In this document: positions 11,853 to 25,663 of the stretch, one piece after another | Layout of the letters: each line of letters starts with the position of its first letter | How positions within the stretch are numbered: position 1 is the first letter of the stretch | Assembly: GCF_002631185.1 (NCBI RefSeq) | Contig: NZ_PDNU01000003.1 | Location: 62,001-126,000 of the forward strand | Origin: Teichococcus rhizosphaerae | Lineage (GTDB): Bacteria > Pseudomonadota > Alphaproteobacteria > Acetobacterales > Acetobacteraceae | Direction of reading: 5' to 3' | DNA: 64,000 nt | Translations under genes and position numbers: made by a program | The notes under the pieces: model-generated | What the model was told of the DNA's origin: nothing | Seen by the model: only the letters and a program-made list of their open reading frames with translations | Databases searched by the model: none

Positions 11853-11881
11853 AACGCGGCGCCGGGCAACGGCGCCGCGTT
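11853..11881 (+). terminator. Intrinsic terminator after prpC
   Basis: Perfect 12-bp stem (aacgcggcgccg / cggcgccgcgtt) with the 5-nt loop ggcaa, followed by tgtcgtt. The T-run is short, but stem quality and position make this the probable end of the prpD-prpC transcript. Confidence 0.7.
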
Positions 11882-11943
11882 TGTCGTTCAGGCATGCGGT
11901 GCTTTTCGCGCGGTGGATTTGCAACGGCGAGGGGCGGATTTCG

Positions 11944-11972
11944 TTGACAAGCGGATTGCGCGTGAAGATAGC
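11944..11972 (+). promoter_or_regulatory. Candidate sigma-70 promoter for the H1-like gene
   Basis: A consensus TTGACA is followed after a 17-bp spacer by GATAGC, a poor but correctly spaced -10. It sits in the 430-bp gap between prpC and the H1-like gene, leaving a leader of about 270 nt. Apart from the terminator and this promoter I see no gene in that gap. Confidence 0.35.
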
Positions 11973-12255
11973 GTGTTTCCGTCGCGTACCGGTTCCGCGC
12001 GATTCGCATGGTGAGTGTCAAGAGACCTCGTGCGCATCGGATGCCGGCAAGGGCGGCACGGTTCGGAAGGACAGCTCGCATGGGCGGCCAGGCAGGGCAC
12101 GACACCGCGAAGGGCCACAGGCCAATCGGGTGCGGAGCCTTTCTGTTGCGCCCGTCCGGGCAAGGGCATTTCCGGAGCGGTGCGCAGGCCGGAAACGGCG
12201 CGCATCGCCCCGGCATGCCGGGCGGCGTCGGTTGGCAAGAAAAGGAGACCAGCAC

Positions 12256-13503
12256 ATGAGTGACGACACGACGAGCAGCCCGCCCCGCGCGCTGCCCATG
12301 GCGATGAGCGCCAGCCGCCGCACCGCGGCCACCCGCAAGGCAAGCTCCGCCGGCCGCAAGGCTCCCGCCAAGACCGCGGCCAAGGCCCCCGCGAAGGCAG
12401 CGCCGAAGAAGACGGCCGCGAAGGCCACTCCCGCGAAGGCTGCGGCGAAGTCCACGGCCAGGACGCCGGCCGCGCGCGGCGCCGCCAAGACCGCCACCAA
12501 GGCGCCCGCGCGCAAGGCCGCCGCGCCGAAGGCGAGCGCCGCCCGCAAGGGCACGGCGACGAGCCGCACGGCGACAACGGCGCGCAAGGCCGCCGCGCCG
12601 AAGGCCAGCGCCGCCCGCAAGAGCACGGCGACGAGCCGCACGGCGACGACGGCACGCAAGGCCGCCACGCCGAAGGCGAGCCCCGCCCGCAAGAGCACGG
12701 CAACGACGGCGCGCAAGGCCGCCACGCCGAAGGCGAGCCCCGCGCGCAAGAGCACGGCGACGACGGCGCGCAAGGCCGCCACGCCGAAGGCGAGCACCGC
12801 GCGCAAGAGCACGGCGACGACGGCGCGCAAGGCCGCCACGCCGAAGGCGAGCCCCGCGCGCAAGAGCACGGCGACGAGCCGCACGGCGACGACGGCGCGC
12901 AAGGCCGCCACGCCGAAGGCGAGCGCCGCCCGCAAGAGCACGGCGACGAGCCGCACGGCGACGACGGCGCGCAAGTCCGCCACGCCGAAGGCGAGCGCCG
13001 CCCGCAAGAGCACGGCGACGAGCCGCACGGCGACGACGGCGCGCAAGGCCGCCACGCCGAAGGCGAGCGCCGCCCGCAAGAGCACGGCGACGAGCCGCAC
13101 GGCGACGACGGCGCGCAAGTCCGCCACGCCGAAGGCGAGCGCCGCCCGCAAGAGCACGGCGACGAGCCGCACGGCGACGACGGCACGCAAGGCCACCACG
13201 CCGAAGGCGGCGGCTCCGGCCCGGCGCCGTGCCGCGGCGCCGCGCAAGGCCAGGCAGGCCGCCGTGGCGCTGGGCGAGAGCATGATCGACACGCTGGCGG
13301 AAATGCCGCAGCAGGCGGCGGCGGTGGCCGAGGCGGTGCTCGGCGATGCCGGCCGTGACGACGCGCCGGCGCCCAAGCCCGCGCGCGCGCGCCGCAAGAA
13401 GGCCGCCGAGGCGCCGGCCGCGGAGGCCGAGCCGATGAGCGCGCCCGAGCGCGAGCCCGAGGCGGAAGCGGAGGCCAAGGCCGAGGCCCCCGCCGGCAAC
13501 TGA
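12256..13503 (+). CDS. Histone H1-like Lys/Ala-rich repeat protein
   Basis: A 415-residue, strongly basic protein resembling the C-terminal tail of eukaryotic histone H1 and bacterial AlgP/Hc1-like DNA-binding proteins. Residues 1-84 carry PAKKA-type spacing (KAPAKTAAKAPAKAAPKK). Residues 85-309 are ten tandem units of 24 or 19 residues with consensus ARKAATPKASAARKSTATSRTATT, and a partial eleventh follows. A final segment holds one amphipathic helix (ALGESMIDTLAEMPQQ...) and an acidic Ala/Glu tail. The ATG follows AAAGGAGA at a good distance. It is probably a nucleoid-binding protein, inferred from composition. Repeat number is expected to vary between strains. It is flanked by terminators, so monocistronic. 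Confidence 0.8.
   Translation: MSDDTTSSPPRALPMAMSASRRTAATRKASSAGRKAPAKTAAKAPAKAAPKKTAAKATPAKAAAKSTARTPAARGAAKTATKAPARKAAAPKASAARKGTATSRTATTARKAAAPKASAARKSTATSRTATTARKAATPKASPARKSTATTARKAATPKASPARKSTATTARKAATPKASTARKSTATTARKAATPKASPARKSTATSRTATTARKAATPKASAARKSTATSRTATTARKSATPKASAARKSTATSRTATTARKAATPKASAARKSTATSRTATTARKSATPKASAARKSTATSRTATTARKATTPKAAAPARRRAAAPRKARQAAVALGESMIDTLAEMPQQAAAVAEAVLGDAGRDDAPAPKPARARRKKAAEAPAAEAEPMSAPEREPEAEAEAKAEAPAGN
12508..13206 (+). repeat. In-frame 72/57-bp coding tandem repeat array
   Basis: Ten units run from 12508 to 13182 with lengths 72, 72, 57, 57, 57, 72, 72, 72, 72 and 72 bp, plus a 24-bp partial. The 57-bp units lack a 15-bp block coding TATSR or equivalent. 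Units 7+8 (12895-13038) and 9+10 (13039-13182) form a second-order 144-bp duplication, each pair alternating RKAATPK and RKSATPK. Confidence 0.95.
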
Positions 13504-16025: not shown

Positions 16026-16658
16026 TCAGCCGAAGGTGCTGAGCAGGTCGTCCACCTGCGCAGGCGTCAGCTCGCGCGCCGGCAGGCCGCGCAGCATCAT
16101 CGCCAGCTTGGCGGACTCCTCCAGCTCCTCGGCGGCATAGACGGCATCGACCAGCGTCTTGCCGGACACCACGGGGCCGTGGTTGGCCAGCAGCAGCGCG
16201 CGCGCATCGAGGGCGGCCTGGTGCACCGCCGGCTCCATGGCGGAATCGCCGGGGCGGTAATAGGGCACGATCGGCAGGCGGCGGCCGACGCGCATGACGA
16301 AATAAGGCGTCAGCGGCGGGATGGGCGCATCCTCGCCGGGTGCGGCGAGGCAGCCGATGGCGGTGGCATAAGTGGAGTGCAGGTGCACCACGGCGCCCGC
16401 CTCGGGCCGCGCGGTGAGCACGGCACGGTGCAGGAACACCTCCTTGGAGGGCTTGTCCCCGCCGACATGCGACCAGTCCGGCGCCAGCTTGCTGATGCGC
16501 GAGGGGCTGAGCCGGCCGAGGGAGGAGTTGGTCGGCGTCATCAGGTAGCCATCGGGCAGGCGCACGCTGATGTTGCCGGCGCTGCCGACGCTGTAGCCGC
16601 GGGCGAAGAGGCTGGCGCCGAGTTCGCAGAGCAGGTCGCGCAGTTCGGATTCGGTCAT
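16026..16658 (-). CDS. otnC: 3-oxo-tetronate 4-phosphate decarboxylase (class II aldolase fold)
   Basis: Class II aldolase/adducin-domain protein of 210 residues. It shows the N-terminal SAGNISVRLPDG loop, proposed catalytic Glu73 and zinc ligands His92, His94 (HLHST) and His160 (ANHGPVV). Coupling to otnK by an ATGA overlap and the shared length identify it as the OtnC type, which decarboxylates 3-oxo-tetronate 4-phosphate to DHAP and CO2 in tetronate catabolism. Fuculose- or ribulose-phosphate aldolase activity is the main alternative from fold alone. The upstream dehydrogenase and isomerase steps are not in this operon. Confidence 0.88.
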   Translation of the reverse strand: MTESELRDLLCELGASLFARGYSVGSAGNISVRLPDGYLMTPTNSSLGRLSPSRISKLAPDWSHVGGDKPSKEVFLHRAVLTARPEAGAVVHLHSTYATAIGCLAAPGEDAPIPPLTPYFVMRVGRRLPIVPYYRPGDSAMEPAVHQAALDARALLLANHGPVVSGKTLVDAVYAAEELEESAKLAMMLRGLPARELTPAQVDDLLSTFG

Positions 16659-17908
16659 GCCATGAACGCTTTCAGGAAAAAATCGCGGGCGCCGAAATTG
16701 CCCGATTTGAGCGCCAGGTGCAGCCCGCCCGGCTCCGCATGGGTCCAGGGCACACCGGGGTCGATCTGATGGCCGATGCGGAGCGTGGCGATGCCGAGCC
16801 GCTGCACCACGGCGCCGGAGGTCTCGCCCCCCGCCACCACCAGCCGGCCCACGCCGCGCGCGACGAGCGCGGCCGCGATGCCGGCCACCGCCCGCTCCAC
16901 CAGCGCGCCGGCCTCTTCCCGCCCGAGGCGCCGCTGCAGCGCGGCCACCTTCTCGGGCGGCGCCGAGGCGGCGATGACGACGGGGCGGCTGTCCGACAGC
17001 TTCCCCTCCATCCACGCCTCCGCCTCGGCCACCAGCGCGGCGGCGTCCGGCGTGACGAGCGGGTCCAGCTCCAGCACCGGCACATGGCCGCGCGCCAGCC
17101 CGATCTGCCCGAGCGTGGCGCGCGAGCAGGAGCCGGCGACCACCGCCATGGCGCCGCGCGGCGGGGGCAGCGCGTCGGCGTCGTCGCGGTCGGGCAACAG
17201 GCCCTGGTCGCGGAAGTTCTGCGGCAGGCCCATGGCGATGCCGGAGCCGCCGGTGACCAGCGCGTGCTCCGCGCAGGCGCGGCCGATGGCGTGCAGATGC
17301 GCCTCCGTCACCGCGTCGGTGATGGCGTAGCGGCGGCCGCCGTCGCGCAGCCGGGTGAAGGCCTGGCGGATGGCGGTCTCGCCCTGCTCCACCACGGCGA
17401 AGGGCACCAGGCCAACGCCGCCATCCGTCTGGCGGGAGAGCACGCGCACCAGGTTGGCGTCGCGCATCGGCGTCAGCGGGTGGCTCTCCATGCCGCTCTC
17501 GCTCAGCAGCGCGCCGCCCACGAAGAGATGGCCCTGGAACACGCTGCGGCCATTGGCCGGAAAGGCCGGGCAGGCGATGGCGAAGCCCGATTGCAGGCGC
17601 TTCAGCAGCGCATCCGCCACCGGCCCGATATTGCCCTCGTCCGTGCTGTCGAAGGTGGAGCAGTACTTGAAGAGGATCTGCCGCGCGCCGCCGGCCAGCA
17701 GCGCGTCGCAGGCGGCGAGGCTCGCGGCCACCGCCTCCGCCACCGGCGCGGTGCGCGACTTCAGCGCGACGACGACGGCATCCGCCTCCGGCAGCGGGCC
17801 GCGCGGCACGCCGATCACCTGCACCGTCGTCATGCCATGGGCGACGAGCATGGCGGCGAGGTCGGTGGCGCCCGTGAAATCGTCCGCGATGCAGCCGAGC
17901 AACGGCAT
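16655..17908 (-). CDS. otnK: 3-oxo-tetronate kinase (four-carbon acid sugar kinase)
   Basis: ATP-dependent kinase of the DUF1537 four-carbon acid sugar kinase family, 417 residues. The N-terminal motif GCIADDFTGATDLA (5-18) and the C-terminal nucleotide-binding segment VVAGGETSGAV are characteristic. It phosphorylates 3-oxo-tetronate (from D-threonate, erythronate or similar) for the downstream decarboxylase OtnC, whose ATG overlaps its stop. It is first in the otnK-otnC-mgsA operon. The ATG at MPLLGCIADD matches the family start. Confidence 0.9.
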   Translation of the reverse strand: MPLLGCIADDFTGATDLAAMLVAHGMTTVQVIGVPRGPLPEADAVVVALKSRTAPVAEAVAASLAACDALLAGGARQILFKYCSTFDSTDEGNIGPVADALLKRLQSGFAIACPAFPANGRSVFQGHLFVGGALLSESGMESHPLTPMRDANLVRVLSRQTDGGVGLVPFAVVEQGETAIRQAFTRLRDGGRRYAITDAVTEAHLHAIGRACAEHALVTGGSGIAMGLPQNFRDQGLLPDRDDADALPPPRGAMAVVAGSCSRATLGQIGLARGHVPVLELDPLVTPDAAALVAEAEAWMEGKLSDSRPVVIAASAPPEKVAALQRRLGREEAGALVERAVAGIAAALVARGVGRLVVAGGETSGAVVQRLGIATLRIGHQIDPGVPWTHAEPGGLHLALKSGNFGARDFFLKAFMA

Positions 17909-17981
17909 CGGTGCCAGTCTCCTCGATCCTTGTTCCGGCGGCAGGGTTAGCACGCCCGGCGGCGGAGGGAAAAACCGCGCT

Positions 17982-18875
17982 TCAGCGCCGCTTCGCCCCG
18001 GGTGGCGGCAGGGCCAGCAGGTCGGTGTGGCCGATGCGGGCGGAAAGCCGGCCGCGCATCGCCTGGGCGCGGCGGGCCTCGGCCCAGGCGCGGATGGCGG
18101 GGGCGTGGCCGCGCGGCAGGGCGGCGAGCGCGGCGCGGGCATGGCCCTCGGCCAGGCTGTCGGCCATCACCGGCGTGTTGGCGCCGATCCGCCACGGGCT
18201 CGGCGCCGTGCGCACGGAGAAGCCGCGGGCGCGGAACGCCTCGGCCAGCGCGCGCGGCGCCGCCGGGCCCAGGGCCGCGCCGCCGAAGCCCTTGTCCCGC
18301 CCCTGGTCGCGGCGGAAGCCGCGCGCCACCAGGCGGTCGGCGGCATGAGGCGGGGAGAACGCTTCCCGCCCGTCCACGTTCAGCGCCGCGTAGAAGGGGA
18401 TGGCGAGCGCCTCCGCCATGCGCCGCACCCAGCGGCGCGAGACGAGGTCGCACAGCGCGGTGCTGACCACGCCATCGGCCTTGTCGAGCGGCAGGGCGCG
18501 CGGCCCGGCGGCGAGGTCGGCCACCAGCGCCTCGACGCGCCAGACGCCCTGCGGCGTGTGGACGAGAAGGGTGGTGTCGCGCGGCCAGGTGGTGGTCCAG
18601 CCGGCGAGGATGGCGCGCTCCTCGATCGTGGCGAAGGCGCGCTGCAGGAGCGCGGGGTCGGAATCCACCAGCGTCCAGAACTGCGAGCGGCCGAGGAGGG
18701 GCGCCAGCCAGCGCAGCAGCGCCCCGGTGCCGGCGCCGAGGTCGAGCAGATGCGGGCGCGGCGGCAGCGCCCCGGCCAGGGCGAGGGCCAGCTCCGCGCT
18801 GCGGGCGCGGGCGTCGAAGGGCTCGCGCAGCGCCAGCCAGTCGCCGTCGAAGCCCTCGGTCGGGGAAGGGGTCAT
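17982..18875 (-). CDS. Class I SAM-dependent methyltransferase
   Basis: A 297-residue methyltransferase with motif I LDLGAGTG (44-51), then an acidic post-I strand (LVDSDPAL). The C-terminal half is Arg-rich and not recognisably tied to a substrate class. Its ATG overlaps the stop of the glycosyltransferase gene (ATGA), and it is the last of five tightly packed genes that begin with a RibD-type reductase. I infer that it methylates a small molecule produced by that cluster, not DNA or RNA, but the sequence gives no direct proof. Confidence 0.82.
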   Translation of the reverse strand: MTPSPTEGFDGDWLALREPFDARARSAELALALAGALPPRPHLLDLGAGTGALLRWLAPLLGRSQFWTLVDSDPALLQRAFATIEERAILAGWTTTWPRDTTLLVHTPQGVWRVEALVADLAAGPRALPLDKADGVVSTALCDLVSRRWVRRMAEALAIPFYAALNVDGREAFSPPHAADRLVARGFRRDQGRDKGFGGAALGPAAPRALAEAFRARGFSVRTAPSPWRIGANTPVMADSLAEGHARAALAALPRGHAPAIRAWAEARRAQAMRGRLSARIGHTDLLALPPPGAKRR

Positions 18876-19915
18876 CGGGCGGCCTGCTCCAGCTCGGCGG
18901 CGAAGGCGGTGGCGCGGTCGGCCCAGCGCGGCAGCTTCTGCCCGGCGCGCCACGCGGCCTCCGCCATCTCGGCGCGGAGGGCGCGGTCGAAGATGGGGCG
19001 GCGCATGGCGCGGGACAGCGAGACCACATCGCCCGGTGCCGCGATCACGCCCGCCTCCTTCGGCACCACGTCGGCGATGGCGCCGCCGGCGGTGATGGCC
19101 ACCGGCAGGCCGTGCGCCAGCGCCTCGGCCGCCGTCATGCCATAGCCTTCCCAGTGGGTGGCGAGGGCAAAGAGGTCGGCGCGGGCATAGAGATCCTCCA
19201 GCGCCTCCTGCGCCACCTCGCCGGCGAAGGTGACACGCTGCCCGATGCCCAGCTCCCCCGCCAGCGAGACCAGCCCCTGGGCGTGCACGGGATCGCGCGC
19301 GCCGCCGGCGATGGTCAGCGTCCAGTCGAGGTCGGGCAGCTTCGCCAGGGCGCGCAGCAGCACGTCGTGCCCCTTGCGCGGCACCAGCACGGCGACCGAG
19401 AGGATGGCGCAGCCCGGGCCGCCCGAGCCCCTGGAGCGCGCCGCCGGGTCGGTGCCCGGCTCCACCACGCCGATGCGCGCCGGGTCCGCGCCGAATTCCA
19501 GCGGCAGCCGGCCGGCGGTGAGGCGGGAGGTGGCGACGAGGCGCGACAGGCGCGGGAACAGCAGCGTCTCTCGCCGCTTCAGCTCATCCCGCTCCGCGTC
19601 GGAGAAGCCGGGCTCGATGGCGGTGGGGTGGTGGATCAGCCCGACCGCGCCGCGCGCCTCCAGCTCGCCCGCGAAGGGCGCGAAGGCCGGCAGGCCCAGC
19701 CCGTCGATGATCAGCCGGGTGCCGGCGGGAACGGCGTCCAGCGCGGCGCGGGCCGAGGCCTCGGCGGCTTCGTCGGGCAGCGGGTGGCGGCCTTCCAGCT
19801 CGACCACGCGCACCGCGTGGCCGGCCGCGCGAAAGCCTTCCACCAGCCGGCGGTCATAGCCATAGCCACCGGAGATGGCGCTGAACGGGCCGGGGACGAG
19901 AAGCGCGATCTCCAT
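18872..19915 (-). CDS. Glycosyltransferase family 4 protein
   Basis: A 347-residue GT-B glycosyltransferase. The N-terminal Rossmann domain begins MEIALLVPGPFSAISGGYGYDRR. The C-terminal domain has the donor-binding RK pair at 180-181 and the EX7E motif (Glu256 in HWEGYGM to Glu264), both typical of GT4 enzymes that transfer a sugar from a nucleotide donor with retention. It begins 3 nt after the PTPS-like gene and overlaps the methyltransferase. There are no capsule or LPS genes around it, so a soluble metabolite acceptor made by the cluster is more likely than a polysaccharide. Confidence 0.85.
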   Translation of the reverse strand: MEIALLVPGPFSAISGGYGYDRRLVEGFRAAGHAVRVVELEGRHPLPDEAAEASARAALDAVPAGTRLIIDGLGLPAFAPFAGELEARGAVGLIHHPTAIEPGFSDAERDELKRRETLLFPRLSRLVATSRLTAGRLPLEFGADPARIGVVEPGTDPAARSRGSGGPGCAILSVAVLVPRKGHDVLLRALAKLPDLDWTLTIAGGARDPVHAQGLVSLAGELGIGQRVTFAGEVAQEALEDLYARADLFALATHWEGYGMTAAEALAHGLPVAITAGGAIADVVPKEAGVIAAPGDVVSLSRAMRRPIFDRALRAEMAEAAWRAGQKLPRWADRATAFAAELEQAAR

Positions 19916-19918
19916 CCC

Positions 19919-20332
19919 TCAGCCCGCCCCGCCCGTGACCGGCGCCTCATAGGCGGCCCAGGCGAGGGGGCTCTCGCGCAGCAGCACCTTCACCGCTTCC
20001 ACCATGTGCCCGCTCTCGCGCAGCCTGCCGCCGCGCAGCGCGGCGCAGAGCCGGCCATGGATGTGCCGGCAAAGGAACTCCGTGCTGGTGTTCTGCCCGG
20101 CGAATTCCGGCACCGTGTCGAGGTTGCGGTAGTCGATCTCGTCCAGGATGGCGCGCAGCTCGACGCGGGCGGCGGCGATGTCCACCAGCAGGTTCGCCGC
20201 GTCCAGCCGCGGCGCGCGGAACTCGGCCTCCACCACGAAGGTGGCGCCGTGGACGCGCTGCGCCGGGCCGAACGCCTCGCCGCGGAAGCTGTGGGCGACC
20301 ATGATGTGGTCGGCGACCGTCAGGCTGAACAT
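19919..20332 (-). CDS. Divergent 6-pyruvoyl-tetrahydropterin synthase / QueD-family protein
   Basis: A 137-residue T-fold protein of the PTPS/QueD family. The zinc-site His14 (VAHS) and His28 (VHGA) remain, but the second histidine of the usual HGH is Ala30, the catalytic Cys preceding it is absent, and the LDHHYLN catalytic segment reads IDYRNLD (66-72). NTSTEF (81-86) and Glu120 are family-like. It is therefore a special subfamily that may bind a pterin-like substrate without canonical QueD chemistry. Its start overlaps the dehydrogenase gene by 13 nt. queC is 2.6 kb away, so substitution for QueD is the main alternative. Confidence 0.75.
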   Translation of the reverse strand: MFSLTVADHIMVAHSFRGEAFGPAQRVHGATFVVEAEFRAPRLDAANLLVDIAAARVELRAILDEIDYRNLDTVPEFAGQNTSTEFLCRHIHGRLCAALRGGRLRESGHMVEAVKVLLRESPLAWAAYEAPVTGGAG

Positions 20333-21363
20333 GCGCGGTGCATTCCTCGTTCGGTGGTTCCGGCGGCGGCGCCGTAGGTGATGACGGGACAGAGCGGCGC
20401 CGGCTCGCCAGAGGCTTGTTCCCCGGCCGGCGGTGGCGCCAGCAGCGCGGCCATGCGCGCCGGCAGGGCCTCGAACGGCACCTCGGGCCCGACCAGCGCG
20501 TCCAGCACCGGGTCGGCCAGCAGGGAAAGGGCCAGGGCCATCCGCTCGGCATGGCTGCGGCGGCCGCGCATGGCGGGCGAGACGCTGCCCACCTGGCTGG
20601 AGCGCAGCGTCAGGCGGCGCGCGTGGAAGGCCTCGCCGAGGGGGAGGGAAACGCTGCGGTCGCCATACCAGGAGGCCTCGACGATGCGCGCCTCCATGGC
20701 GGCGAGGCCGAGGGCGGCGCGCAGCCCCTCCGGGCTCGCGGAGGCGTGCAGGATCAGCTCCTGCTCGGCCGGCGCCTCCCCGGGTGCCGCGAAGCGGGCG
20801 CCCAGCGCCTCGGCCACGGCGCGGCGCGTGGGGTCGGTGTCCTGCACCGTGACATTGGTGCCGGGAAAGCGGGCGACGAGATAGGCGCAGAGCAGCCCGA
20901 CCACGCCGCCGCCGATCACCAGCACGCGCTCGCCGGGGATGGGCGCCGCGTCCCAGACGATGTTCAGCGCCGTTTCCATGTTGGCGGCCAGCACGGCGCG
21001 GCGGTCCGGCACCGCCTCCGGCACGGGCGCACACATGGCGGCGGGCGCCAGGAAGCGGTCCTGGTGCGGGTGCAGGCAGAAGGCGCGGCGGCCGAGCAGG
21101 TCCGGCGGGCCTTCCTCCACCACGCCCACGGCGGCGTAGCCGTATTTCACGGGAAAGGGGAAGTCGCCTTCCTGCAGGGGCGCGCGCATGGCCTGCCACT
21201 GGCTTTCCGGCACATGGCCGTGCAGCACCAGACGCTCCGTGCCGCGCGAGACGCCGCTGGCCAGCGTTCGCAGCAGCGCCTCCTCCGGCGCGCGGGGCGG
21301 CAGCGCCTCCTCGCGGATCTCGCCCTGGCCGGGAGCCGTGGCCCAGAAGGCGCGGGCCATCAT
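20320..21363 (-). CDS. MDR-family dehydrogenase lacking the catalytic zinc site
   Basis: A 347-residue medium-chain dehydrogenase/reductase with an N-terminal GroES-like domain and a Rossmann loop VIGGGVVGL (GGGVVG 151-156). The cysteine of the classical GVCHTD motif is Ser39 (GVSRGTE), and the GHE region reads KYGYAAVG (73-80), so a catalytic zinc is not expected. Family hallmarks outside the zinc site (EGDFPFPVKYGY, AANMETALN, EASWYGD, RRLTLRSSQVG) resemble bacterial oxidoreductases of unknown substrate. It overlaps both neighbours (ATGATG with the reductase gene), so it belongs to the five-gene cluster. Confidence 0.82.
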   Translation of the reverse strand: MMARAFWATAPGQGEIREEALPPRAPEEALLRTLASGVSRGTERLVLHGHVPESQWQAMRAPLQEGDFPFPVKYGYAAVGVVEEGPPDLLGRRAFCLHPHQDRFLAPAAMCAPVPEAVPDRRAVLAANMETALNIVWDAAPIPGERVLVIGGGVVGLLCAYLVARFPGTNVTVQDTDPTRRAVAEALGARFAAPGEAPAEQELILHASASPEGLRAALGLAAMEARIVEASWYGDRSVSLPLGEAFHARRLTLRSSQVGSVSPAMRGRRSHAERMALALSLLADPVLDALVGPEVPFEALPARMAALLAPPPAGEQASGEPAPLCPVITYGAAAGTTERGMHRACSA

Positions 21364-22208
21364 GGCGCCGCCTCCTCCGGAGGCGCGCAGACGGCGGGGC
21401 GGGCGCGGCCGAGGGCGATGTCGAACAGCACGTCCTCCCCCAGCGGATGCACCGCCCAGGCGAAGCGCAGCCCGTCGGCGATGCGGGCCGCCTCGGGCAG
21501 GGTGAAGGCGGGGATGCCGGAGCCCAGCAGCACCGGCGCCACCGTCATGTGCAGCCGGTCCAGGCAGCCGGCGGCGAGGAAGCGCGAAACGGTCAGCCCG
21601 CCGCCCTCCACGAAGATGCGCCGCAGCCCGCGCGCCGCCAGCATCGGCAGCAGGGCGCAAAGGTCGAGCCCGCCGATCGGCGCGCGGGGTGCGCGCAGCA
21701 CCTCGGCCGCGCCATGGGTGGCGGTGCCCCCGGCATCCTCGGCGCAGACCAGCAGGGTGGGCGGCCCGCCCGGGGCGAACAGGCCGTATCCGGTGCCGAG
21801 CCGCCGGTTGGTGTCGAGCACCACGCGCACCGGGCTCGGGCCGGGCACGGCGCGGGTGGTCAGGCGGGGGTCGTCGTGCCGCACCGTGCCGGCGCCGATC
21901 ACCACCGCGTCGCACAGGGCGCGCAGCCGGTGGGTGTGGGTGATGTCGCCCGCGCCGCCGATCCACTGGCTGGAGCCGGAGGCGGTGGCGATGCGCCCGT
22001 CCAGCGTCTGCGCCAGCCGGCCGAGCACGATGCAGCCATCGGGCGCCGTGGGGGGCGCCAGCAGCGGCGCGAACAGGGCGGCGTAGGGGCTTCCCTCGGG
22101 CGCCGCGCCGCCGGCCGCGCGCTGGCGCAGCAGGGCGTCCCAGTCCGGGTCCGGCAGGGGCGGGTCCGGCGGTGGGGCAATGGGCGTCGTGTTCGGTGCG
22201 GAGGCCAT
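21360..22208 (-). CDS. RibD C-terminal-type (dihydrofolate-reductase-fold) reductase
   Basis: A 282-residue protein with only the reductase half of RibD: RLAQTLDGRIA (64-74), GAGTVRHDDPRLT (106-118) and the FVEGGG substrate loop. The N-terminal deaminase domain with its HAE and PCxxC zinc motifs is absent and replaced by about 50 Pro/Ala-rich residues. Such stand-alone enzymes reduce the ribose of pyrimidine or pterin-like intermediates with NADPH. As first gene of a five-gene cluster it is unlikely to be the housekeeping riboflavin enzyme. It is preceded by an 86-bp gap with a hairpin that separates it from the queuosine genes. Confidence 0.85.
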   Translation of the reverse strand: MASAPNTTPIAPPPDPPLPDPDWDALLRQRAAGGAAPEGSPYAALFAPLLAPPTAPDGCIVLGRLAQTLDGRIATASGSSQWIGGAGDITHTHRLRALCDAVVIGAGTVRHDDPRLTTRAVPGPSPVRVVLDTNRRLGTGYGLFAPGGPPTLLVCAEDAGGTATHGAAEVLRAPRAPIGGLDLCALLPMLAARGLRRIFVEGGGLTVSRFLAAGCLDRLHMTVAPVLLGSGIPAFTLPEAARIADGLRFAWAVHPLGEDVLFDIALGRARPAVCAPPEEAAP

Positions 22209-22294: not shown

Positions 22295-22867
22295 TCAGGC
22301 GGGCAGGATGCCGCGGCGGGCATCGGCGCGGCGCAGCCAGGCGGCCAGCGGCAGGGCCAGCAGCACCATCCACAGCTTGCCCAGCACCTGGCCCGGCAGA
22401 TAGGCGAGGTCGCCAAAGGCGATGCCGAGGAAGAACACGCTGTCCACCACCAGCCCGACCGCGCCGGAGGCGAGCACCGCCAGCACCAGGTTGCGCCGCT
22501 GCAACGGCGTGTAGACCAGCAGGTCCGCCGTCTCGCTGAGCAGGAAGGCGGCGGCCGAGGCCAGCACCAGGGCGGGCGGCGCCAGCAGGGCGGAAAGCGC
22601 CGCGCCCGCCAGGATGGCGGCCCAGGCATAGCCGAGGCCGAGGCGGCGCTGCACCAGGTCCCGCAGCACCAGGGCGAGGCCGATCATCAGCACGCCGGAA
22701 GGCGCCATGACCCCCGGCGCCACGGGGATCAGGCAGGGCCCCTGCGGCGCGCAGACGGTGCCGGCATGGCCGATCAGCCAGTTGGCGGCGGGAATGGTGA
22801 GGCCGAAGGCGAGAAGGGCCAGGAAGCCCTCGAGGCGGCGGGTGCCGGTCATCTGCGAGTTTTCCAT
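22295..22867 (-). CDS. VUT family (YhhQ-like) queuosine precursor transporter
   Basis: A 190-residue inner-membrane protein with about six hydrophobic segments, matching the DUF165/VUT family, whose E. coli member YhhQ imports the queuosine precursors preQ0/preQ1. It lies 34 nt downstream of queC on the same strand, which supports the same role here: salvage of 7-deazaguanine precursors. Two in-frame ATGs five codons apart exist (MENSQM); I use the first, though neither has a strong ribosome binding site. Confidence 0.8.
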   Translation of the reverse strand: MENSQMTGTRRLEGFLALLAFGLTIPAANWLIGHAGTVCAPQGPCLIPVAPGVMAPSGVLMIGLALVLRDLVQRRLGLGYAWAAILAGAALSALLAPPALVLASAAAFLLSETADLLVYTPLQRRNLVLAVLASGAVGLVVDSVFFLGIAFGDLAYLPGQVLGKLWMVLLALPLAAWLRRADARRGILPA

Positions 22868-22901
22868 TGCTGGGCGGGAGCATCCGCACTGACGGAAAGC
22901 G

Positions 22902-23591
22902 TCAGCGGCGGGACTGGTACTCCGCCCAGCCCTTCGCGCGCAACTCGCAGGCCGGGCACGCGGCGCAGCCATGCCCCCAGGGGTGGCGCGCGCCGCGCTC
23001 GCCGCGGTAGCAGGTGTGGGTTTGCTCGACGATCTCGGCCACCAGCTTCCGGCCGCCCAGCCGCTCGGCCAGCTCCCAGGTCTGCGCCTTGTCTAGCCAC
23101 ATCAGCGGCGTGTGCAGCACGAAGCGCCGCTCCATGCCGAGGTTCAGCGCCACCTGCAGCGCCTTGATGGTGTCGTCGCGGCAATCGGGGTAGCCGGAGA
23201 AATCCGTCTCGCACATGCCGCCCACGATGTGGCGCAGCCCGCGCCGGTAGGCCAGCGCCGCGGCGAAGGTGAGGAAGACGATGTTGCGGCCGGGGACGAA
23301 GGTGTTGGGCAGCCCGTCCTCCCGCATGGCGATCTCCGTCTCGCGCGTCAGGGCGGTGTCGGACACGGCGCCGAGGGCGTCGAGCGCCAGGGTGTGGTCG
23401 GGGCCGAGGCGCGCCTGCCATGCCGCCGGCAGGGTGGCGCGGAAGGCGGCGCGGCATTCCAGCTCCACCCGGTGGCGCTGGCCGTAGTCGAAGCCCAGCG
23501 TTTCCACATGGGGAAAGCGGTCCAGCGCCCAGGCCAGGCAGGTGGCGGAATCCTGCCCGCCGCTGAACAACACCAGCGCGCCTTCGTCCAT
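22902..23591 (-). CDS. queC: 7-cyano-7-deazaguanine synthase
   Basis: Converts 7-carboxy-7-deazaguanine to preQ0 with ATP and ammonia in queuosine biosynthesis. The 229 residues show the PP-loop SGGQDS (10-15) and a C-terminal zinc site of four cysteines (Cys194, 209, 212, 215). QueC is the step after QueE; queE and a canonical queD are not in this window. It clusters with queA, tgt, queF, queG and a VUT transporter. Confidence 0.95.
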
Positions 23592-23660
23592 CGCCCGGTC
23601 CCTTTCCTCGTTGCGCGCCGGGATTGCGGCGGGCGGGGGAGGGCGTCAAGCGCGGCGGGG

Positions 23661-23975
23661 TCAGAACAGGCCGAACAGGCCCTTCTCCTGCCGCTCGGCC
23701 CGCACCAGAAGCCGCGCCTGCTCGGCGGCGAAGGCGCGCCGCGCCGCGAGGCCCGGCATGGTGACGTTGCGCCGCCTGCACCACTCCATGAAAGGCTCGG
23801 GCCGCACGGCGATGCGGATGACGCGGTAGCCCTCGCTGAGCGCCCGCGTCACGTCCCGCTGCGCGCCGGAAAGCCAGTCGTCATAGTGCTCGCTCATGTC
23901 CGGCATGATGCCGCGCAGCGCGTCGAAGGATTTCTCGTCGTACCAGGCATAGCCCATGATCGGCTTGTCGCTCAT
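23661..23975 (-). CDS. Hypothetical protein within the queuosine cluster
   Basis: A 104-residue soluble protein starting MSDKPIMGYAWYDEKSFDALRGIMPD, with conserved-looking aromatic and Arg-rich stretches and no motif I can name. It ends 69 nt before queC. A 125-bp gap containing an 18-bp palindrome separates it from queG. It resembles uncharacterised short proteins that start 'M..Y.WYd...f..lr', but I assign no function. Expression with the queuosine genes is likely from position only. Confidence 0.65.
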   Translation of the reverse strand: MSDKPIMGYAWYDEKSFDALRGIMPDMSEHYDDWLSGAQRDVTRALSEGYRVIRIAVRPEPFMEWCRRRNVTMPGLAARRAFAAEQARLLVRAERQEKGLFGLF

Positions 23976-24059
23976 CGCGGTCCCTCTCGCGTCCAGGGCC
24001 AGGCTGCGCCGGCCATGCGGAGGGTTTTACAAAAAATGAGACGGCACGGCAGGCCCTTC

Positions 24060-24077
24060 TGCGCCTCCGGAGGCGCA
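24060..24077. other. Perfect 18-bp palindrome
   Basis: The sequence tgcgcctccggaggcgca reads identically on both strands and lies in the gap between queG and the small hypothetical gene, next to A/T-rich stretches. It could be a protein-binding dyad or a partial terminator; it has no loop and no adjoining T-run in the transcribed direction. Confidence 0.45.
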
Positions 24078-24099
24078 TTTGATAAGAGCGAACAAGAGG

Positions 24100-25186
<1,087 letters not shown>

Positions 25187-25200
<14 letters not shown>

Positions 25201-25663
25201 GGTAGTTCGGCACGTCCTGGGCGGGCACCCAGACGCCCGCCGGCGCATCGCCCGTCTGCCAGAACACGTCGATCGGGATGCCGCCGCGCGGATACCAGTA
25301 GCCGCCGATCCGCAGCCAGACCGGGGAAAGCGTTTCCGCCAGCCGCTGGCCGATGCCCACGGTGCAGGCCTCGTGGAAGGCGCCGTGGTTGCGGAAGGCG
25401 GTGAGGAAGAGCTTGAGGCTCTTGCTTTCCACCAGCCAGTCGCCCGGCACGTAGTCGATCATCAGATGCGCGAAATCGGGCTGGCCGGTGATGGGGCAGA
25501 GCGAGGTGAACTCGGGCGCCGTGAAGCGCACGCAGTAGCAGCTGCCCGGATGCGGGTTGGGCACGCGCTCCAGCACAGCCTCCTCGGGCGAGGCGGGCTG
25601 CCGCGTGTTCTGGCCCAGCATGGTCAGGCCAGAGACATCATGTGTTCCCATGGGGCTGCTCAT
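25187..25663 (-). CDS. queF: NADPH-dependent preQ0 reductase
   Basis: Reduces the nitrile of preQ0 to the aminomethyl of preQ1. It is the short unimodular (YkvM-like) T-fold form, 158 residues, with catalytic Cys56 and Asp63 in [11 protein letters not shown] and the NADPH-binding QueF motif ESKSLK (79-84). The ATG overlaps the tgt stop (ATGA). Confidence 0.95.

Follow-up and report, generated by a model that had tools for sequence, protein, structure and literature searches.

Here, we report the analysis of a five-gene operon in a 64,000-nt stretch of the genome of Teichococcus rhizosphaerae (NZ_PDNU01000003.1, positions 62,001-126,000; hereafter the window, in whose positions cluster coordinates are given). 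The operon encodes a RibD_C-type reductase, a dehydrogenase of the medium-chain dehydrogenase/reductase (MDR) superfamily, a T-fold protein of the PTPS-IV (FGPAQ) type, a family 4 glycosyltransferase (GT4), and a class I S-adenosylmethionine (SAM) methyltransferase-like protein (MT). It is a real unit, not a chance assembly of genes, and, on balance, we favor the view that it forms the core of a conserved pathway of wide distribution that diverts an early intermediate of the riboflavin branch into a dedicated small molecule. The pathway occurs in many bacteria of soil and water and in salt-loving archaea, and its product is probably a sugar-bearing, methylated, GTP-derived compound.

A compact operon with conserved partners

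All five genes lie on the minus strand. The RibD_C gene (21360..22208; 282 amino acids, without a deaminase domain) is overlapped by 4 nt by the MDR gene (20320..21363; 347 amino acids), which in turn is overlapped by 13 nt by the PTPS gene (19919..20332; 137 amino acids); a gap of 3 nt separates the latter from the GT4 gene (18872..19915; 347 amino acids), and the MT gene (17982..18875; 297 amino acids) overlaps GT4 by 4 nt (ATGA). These coordinates and overlaps confirm the tight coupling described in a first-pass annotation of this DNA. Pfam cut-offs are passed by the reductase (PF01872, 3e-37, its only family match), PTPS (PF01242, 1e-21), and GT4 (PF00534, 2.5e-29). The MDR protein, assigned from weak family matches and an AlphaFold model, and MT (PF13649, 2e-5, under the cut-off) are remote members of their superfamilies.

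Among 142 genomes of Alphaproteobacteria, 16 contain PTPS matches at E <= 0.001, of which 14 are strong (E < 1e-34), and the same 14 genomes are those with an MDR match at E <= 1e-10. The two genes are adjacent in 13 of the 14 and lie on different contigs in the remaining one (G035). This co-occurrence corresponds to a Fisher p of ~1e-19, a value that ignores relatedness and for which G063 and G097, with their weak PTPS matches, were left out.

When named genomes were scanned with the MDR protein, at least 593 stretches matched, some of which may share one gene, and the best 80 were kept as loci; being chosen by similarity to the window MDR, these over-represent Acetobacteraceae and Streptomyces. 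Linkage was counted by tblastn at E <= 1e-8 within ~9 kb of the MDR gene, less at contig ends. Counted in this way, PTPS is linked in 79 of the 80 loci, GT4 in 76, MT in 71, and RibD_C in 55, followed by a CDP-alcohol phosphotransferase (43), a flippase-like LPG_TM protein (38), a creatininase-family protein (34), and GTP cyclohydrolase II (GCH II; 33); QueC, VUT, and cytochrome b are each linked in a single locus. All five families of the operon fall within ~9 kb in 49 loci, of which 30 also preserve order and strand (46 and 28, respectively, without the weak RibD_C matches of L076, L087, and L099). MDR, PTPS, GT4, and MT occur together in 70 loci and are collinear in 69 of these. Clustering of open reading frames (ORFs) over 88 loci recovered the same families, the neighbors being otherwise mostly lineage-specific.

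The named loci come from Alpha-, Beta-, and Gammaproteobacteria, Actinomycetota, and one acidobacterial metagenome-assembled genome, and plasmids add haloarchaea. In 18 of 31 MDR-bearing plasmid records, the annotated partners are PTPS (16), GT4 (15), CDP-alcohol phosphotransferase (10), GCH II or IIa (8), RibD (7), and creatininase (1). The five families are thus conserved together, as the first-pass annotation had anticipated, with the qualification that GT4, MT, and RibD_C are not universal.

The PTPS-IV protein

FGPAQ, which is present in the window PTPS, is given as the signature of the PTPS-IV subfamily of COG0720 in passages of PMC5445326 that cite PMC5041015. A pattern of this type, F[GS]PA[QH]xxHG, occurs in 78 of the 80 named loci (exceptions, L049 and L086); L008 has an FGPAR variant of PTPS-IV. 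The nearest solved structure is 3d7j (E 2.8e-41), deposited as 'uncharacterized protein SCO6650'. The CxxxHGH motif of QueD is missing from the window protein, which reads PAQRVHGA, with alanine at the positions of the cysteine and the third zinc histidine, and which scores 41.1 bits against a cut-off of 89.25 for TIGR03367 (QueD). The H14, H28, and E120 columns align with QueD, E120 with a QueD glutamate, and all three are invariant in 61 of 61 aligned rows (the window and 60 PTPS ORFs picked from 88 loci, 28 of which gave no row); in one PTPS profile, E. coli QueD is itself a row, and the QueD matches of that profile arise partly by construction. We take the QueD residues to have their customary roles, that is, the catalytic cysteine, the zinc-binding histidines, and the glutamate that anchors pterins. 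SCO6650 was reportedly found by Spoonamore and co-workers in 2008 to lack zinc, a catalytic triad, and PTPS activity and to possess a site fit for a pterin-like ligand; our alignment, with the cysteine and the third histidine lost and E120 kept, fits this description.

The window PTPS is the only PF01242 match in its own genome. Within the family, such a match is present in 65 of 80 genomes, with two in some, and ten other PF01242 copies from family genomes all have HGH motifs, none being of the FGPAQ type; some of these genomes carry an HGH-type PTPS besides PTPS-IV.

Linked cyclohydrolases and creatininases

The first-pass annotation assumed a substrate of the dihydroneopterin triphosphate type and proposed a search for a linked GTP cyclohydrolase. 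Such an enzyme is indeed present in many lineages, and it is of type II in bacteria and of type IIa in haloarchaea, in which it directly precedes the MDR gene in four of nine plasmid regions, the other five being without it; a query with FolE matched 1 of the 80 loci. Dihydroneopterin triphosphate is therefore disfavored as the starting compound.

GCH II enzymes of the formamidopyrimidine (FAPy) type are known, and the position of a tyrosine presumably separates formamide- from diamine-producing forms; methionine at this position is said, from work of Spoonamore in 2006, to make SCO6655 stop at FAPy. In the column corresponding to this tyrosine in the RibA of T. rhizosphaerae, the 35 linked GCH II sequences that we examined (33 from named loci and 2 from plasmids) have methionine in 25 cases, histidine in 5, and tyrosine in 5. 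All 30 copies with methionine or histidine are from Actinomycetota, each with a linked creatininase; the five tyrosine copies are proteobacterial or acidobacterial, three of them with a weaker creatininase match (32-35% identity). According to passages of PMC9478397, BrbF, a creatininase-family protein of Sinorhizobium, removes the formyl group from FAPy. The linked GCH II and IIa, together with the association of each methionine or histidine copy with a creatininase, point to the GCH II (riboflavin) branch, rather than the GCH I pterin pathway, as the source of the substrate, and suggest that the actinobacterial FAPy-type GCH II and creatininase may serve this pathway.

Reductase, dehydrogenase, and tailoring enzymes

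The best PDB relatives of the RibD_C protein, 6p8c (1.5e-26) and 2azn (7e-18), are ribosylaminopyrimidinone-phosphate/uracil reductases. The window protein contains DDPRLT, and a motif scan of the 55 linked RibD_C ORFs found no deaminase. That it is the ordinary RibD of riboflavin synthesis was rejected, another RibD_C protein being encoded near the riboflavin operon on contig C92. The earlier statement that no step matches known riboflavin, folate, or queuosine biosynthesis has to be amended for RibD_C, given its nearest solved relatives.

Sequence matches of the MDR protein are weak (AlaDh_PNT_C/ADH_zinc_N, BchC, and HpnZ in Pfam and NCBIfam). Its AlphaFold model (mean predicted local distance difference test score, pLDDT, 84.8) has MDR dehydrogenases as best PDB matches, with RspB (4ilk) at the top, and the sequence and fold matches include RspB and sorbitol, idonate, xylitol, and threonine dehydrogenases. 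For MDR as for MT, AlphaFold and Foldseek resolve the superfamily and no substrate. We compared the protein with what we take to be the zinc-ligand motif of the superfamily, a catalytic cysteine and a His-Glu pair. In two alignments, the usual positions have no conserved Cys/His-Glu, and S36, S39, and K-Y-G-Y76 are invariant instead, in agreement with the earlier description of the enzyme as zinc-less.

GT4 finds its best PDB match in 6kih and a weak one in the tetrahydrobiopterin glucosyltransferase structures 5zer/5ze7 (E 5e-4). The window protein carries an EX7E-type motif, EGYGMTAAE, and the strict EX7E pattern is present in 43 of the 76 linked GT4 proteins. MT stays under every Pfam cut-off and has no NCBIfam match; its AlphaFold model (pLDDT 95.5) is most similar in Foldseek to 3mgg, 3gu3, and RebM, matches that are in keeping with a class I SAM methyltransferase-like protein.

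Lipid-type partners in other lineages

All 48 linked CDP-alcohol phosphotransferase copies tested retain the signature of their family. NCBIfam similarity, under the cut-offs, is to phosphatidyl/archaetidyl-inositol phosphate synthases and PgsA. By tblastn at E <= 1e-8, neither this gene nor the flippase-like gene was found beside the window cluster or other compact clusters of Acetobacteraceae. Together, the phosphotransferase and the flippase-like protein suggest a lipid product in other lineages; such partners were not foreseen in the first-pass annotation.

Some clusters have further membrane-associated neighbors. An MdoH-type membrane glucosyltransferase is annotated near the cluster in L020 and L177, and the same ORF family is present in L064, L073, L075, and L107. 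A membrane protein annotated as 'sulfatase' lies beside the phosphotransferase and flippase genes in L024 and L175; its ORF family occurs in seven loci, and the L024 copy has no Pfam or NCBIfam match.

Genomic context in T. rhizosphaerae

The assembly consists of 113 contigs, so that the absence of a gene could reflect a gap. On contig C92 (L027), RibE, RibBA, and RibH were recognized by eye, with a RibD_C protein ~1.4 kb from RibBA. A stand-alone RibA, with tyrosine at the switch column, is encoded on C44, and a third GCH II-like protein, by eye of the uracil-degradation type, on C42; two creatininase-family proteins are present, unlinked to the cluster. With the genome's own RibD at its riboflavin operon and a PTPS that lacks the QueD motif and falls below the QueD cut-off, the reductase and the PTPS are not the ordinary riboflavin and queuosine enzymes, in line with the first-pass annotation.

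FolE (PF01227), FolE2 (PF02649), and QueE (TIGR03365) have no match in this genome at E <= 0.001. FolP is encoded between FtsH and GlmM (contig C1, 7474-8256; L167; flanking genes assigned by eye), and a joined folate query gave a second match in this genome. The presence of FolP with neither GTP cyclohydrolase I family matched leaves an apparent hole at the first folate step. A general role of the cluster as a replacement for FolE is not supported, because, of the 14 genomes of the class with the cluster, at least 5 have FolE-type matches (G053, G064, G128, G131, and G135 among the matches listed).

On its upstream side, the cluster adjoins a queuosine block assigned by Pfam and NCBIfam (window 22295-25660) of QueC, QueG, QueF, and a VUT-type transporter, with Tgt and QueA next to it by eye. 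Since QueC, QueG, and QueF are present and no QueD-type PTPS, QueE, FolE, or FolE2 was matched in the genome, import of a precursor is suggested for a QueC that lacks its usual supplier. Downstream, at window positions 16026-17911, are an SBD_N/NBD_C kinase-type gene, linked in 26 of the 80 named loci, and an aldolase-like gene (the latter by eye). Farther away, a plus-strand ORF at 11881-13503 contains many near-identical repeats rich in Ala, Lys, Thr, and Arg and appears, by eye, to be histone H1-like.

Proposed pathway and alternative explanations

In the pathway that we propose, GCH II or the archaeal GTP cyclohydrolase IIa would open GTP to yield a ribosylamino-pyrimidinone phosphate. In T. 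rhizosphaerae, this activity would presumably be supplied in trans by the stand-alone RibA on C44, and in actinobacteria, a putative formamidase of the creatininase family would finish the conversion begun by the FAPy-type GCH II. By homology, RibD_C would then reduce the ribosyl chain to a ribityl chain, with no deamination. These two steps are suggested by linkage in relatives and by the closest solved relatives of the reductase. More speculatively, the MDR enzyme might oxidize a hydroxyl of the ribityl chain, and PTPS-IV might hold the 2-amino-4-oxopyrimidine edge of a guanine-like ring through its invariant glutamate and catalyze a condensation or ring closure by a chemistry unlike that of QueD. 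GT4 and MT, judged by their families, would add a sugar and a methyl group, and in many other lineages, not visibly here, the phosphotransferase and the flippase-like protein could attach the product to the membrane or move it across. We infer, as the first-pass annotation did, a reduced, glycosylated, and methylated product. Its further description as pterin-like or deazaguanine-like is supported in part: a GCH I source of the pterin is disfavored, and nothing specific for deazaguanine was found.

Several observations weigh against this pathway. Conservation, linkage, and motif states are observed; the reactions and the product are what we infer from them. At the tblastn threshold given above, no GCH II, creatininase, phosphotransferase, or flippase gene is linked to the window cluster, and at E <= 1e-8 the three CDP-alcohol phosphotransferases of this genome match none of the cluster-type copies. 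Many Streptomyces loci have no linked RibD_C, the matches in L076, L087, and L099 (29-36% identity) may represent different reductases, and the strict DDPxLT pattern is found in 32 of the 55 linked copies. GT4 is missing beside some copies (L025 and L173; 4 of the 80 named loci, some at contig ends). The one haloarchaeal PTPS that was aligned is divergent (27% identity), with HSH and without FGPAQ, and the sole FolE match, in L083, is a linked one. The Streptomyces creatininase scores best, under the cut-off, with the mycofactocin protein MftE and matches ArfB weakly, so its formamidase role stays putative. Other substrates would also be compatible with MDR and MT.

A classical pterin route, in which dihydroneopterin triphosphate made by GCH I would pass through PTPS, a reduction by RibD_C akin to that of dihydrofolate reductase (DHFR), glycosylation by GT4, and methylation, appears distinctly unlikely. 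It would account for the retained glutamate column of the T-fold protein, with its presumed pterin-anchoring role, for the weak similarity of GT4 to tetrahydrobiopterin glucosyltransferase, for the DHFR fold that RibD_C presumably shares, and for the FolE matches in at least 5 of the 14 genomes. The linked cyclohydrolases are, however, of type II or IIa, with FolE in a single locus; T. rhizosphaerae itself has no FolE or FolE2 match; and the PTPS has lost its cysteine and one zinc histidine. A variant in which the pteridine, or a related bicyclic compound, is made with no GTP cyclohydrolase I step strikes us as quite improbable. The C2' of the ribityl chain, once oxidized, would give the ketose that GCH I makes by Amadori rearrangement, so that reduction by RibD_C and re-oxidation at C2' by MDR could form a two-step substitute for that rearrangement, with ring closure by PTPS-IV; the compound would then receive a sugar and a methyl group and, in many bacteria and haloarchaea, be linked to phospholipid. 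If this were true, a pteridine glycolipid would represent a new class of membrane constituents, and the route might feed FolP in T. rhizosphaerae, where FolE was not found. Possible, though unlikely, is a membrane lipid in which an alcohol phosphate of the ribityl type is joined to CDP-diacylglycerol by the phosphotransferase, with GT4 adding the sugar and the LPG_synthase_TM protein acting as flippase. The linkage of the phosphotransferase in 43 loci, its intact signature and sub-cut-off similarity to inositol-phosphate synthases and PgsA, the flippase-like protein in 38 loci, and the MdoH or 'sulfatase' annotations beside some clusters are all in its favor. The lack of lipid genes beside the window cluster and other compact Acetobacteraceae clusters speaks against it, and these genes could be a lineage-specific add-on.

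It is extremely doubtful that PTPS-IV is the QueD of its own genome and the cluster a part of queuosine synthesis, even though it is the only PF01242 match there and is encoded near VUT, QueC, QueG, and QueF. The CxxxHGH motif is absent, only 1 of 80 loci has QueC or VUT near the cluster, and some family genomes have an HGH-type PTPS in addition; as QueE and FolE were not found in the genome, such a QueD would lack both substrate and successor. Membership in queuosine synthesis was rejected on the motif, the missing QueE and FolE, and the lack of conserved linkage. A role in F420 biosynthesis, as remarked by Zallot et al., is very improbable in our estimate; passages of PMC5041015 list PTPS-IV and, referring to unpublished work, assign it to F420 synthesis, which counts against the riboflavin-branch pathway. 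Among the recurrent families of the 88 loci, no CofG/CofH or CofC/D/E was recognized by eye, no model search having been made. F420 synthesis presumably shares precursors of the riboflavin type, and the partners seen here (GT4, MT, and CDP-alcohol phosphotransferase) differ from the set that we associate with it.

Relationship to known systems

The PTPS-IV subfamily, its neighborhood with PF00925 and RibD_C, and the structure of SCO6650 are already known. In a search that mostly did not cover subscription literature, we did not find the cluster as a whole described as a single pathway; in the literature searched, neither the archaeal version, the phosphotransferase/flippase module, and the association of the switch residue with creatininase, nor a product of the pathway was found in print. 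The diversion of a riboflavin-branch intermediate that we favor would give a genomic context to PTPS-IV and SCO6650, a solved structure whose function is not assigned. Should the lipid partners work on this same molecule, bacteria and archaea would share a new membrane component derived from GTP.

The window PTPS belongs with SCO6650 and the PTPS-IV subfamily by the FGPAQ signature and the match at E 2.8e-41. It shares with QueD (PTPS-I) the T-fold family and the H14, H28, and E120 columns and differs from it by the missing CxxxHGH motif and the score below the TIGR03367 cut-off. The neighborhood with PF00925 and RibD_C was noted in PMC5445326, where, in the passages concerned, PF00925 is read as FolE2/GTP cyclohydrolase I; these passages make no mention of MDR, GT4, MT, the phosphotransferase, creatininase, or the archaeal version. 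The reductase resembles RibD and the archaeal-type ribosylaminopyrimidinone-phosphate reductase in its RibD_C domain, DDPRLT motif, and best PDB match (6p8c); unlike RibD, it is encoded apart from the riboflavin operon, with other linked genes, and has no deaminase. The tetrahydrobiopterin glycoside pathway starts from GCH I, and the likeness to pterin glycosides lies in the GT4-type match to UDP-glucose:tetrahydrobiopterin glucosyltransferase, a similarity that is weak (E 5e-4). With the BrbF/ArfB and GCH III route of Sinorhizobium and archaea, as presented in passages of PMC9478397, the actinobacterial loci may have in common the FAPy-type chemistry and a putative creatininase-family formamidase; that route feeds riboflavin, whereas the actinobacterial GCH II/creatininase pair is found with MDR, PTPS-IV, GT4, and MT.

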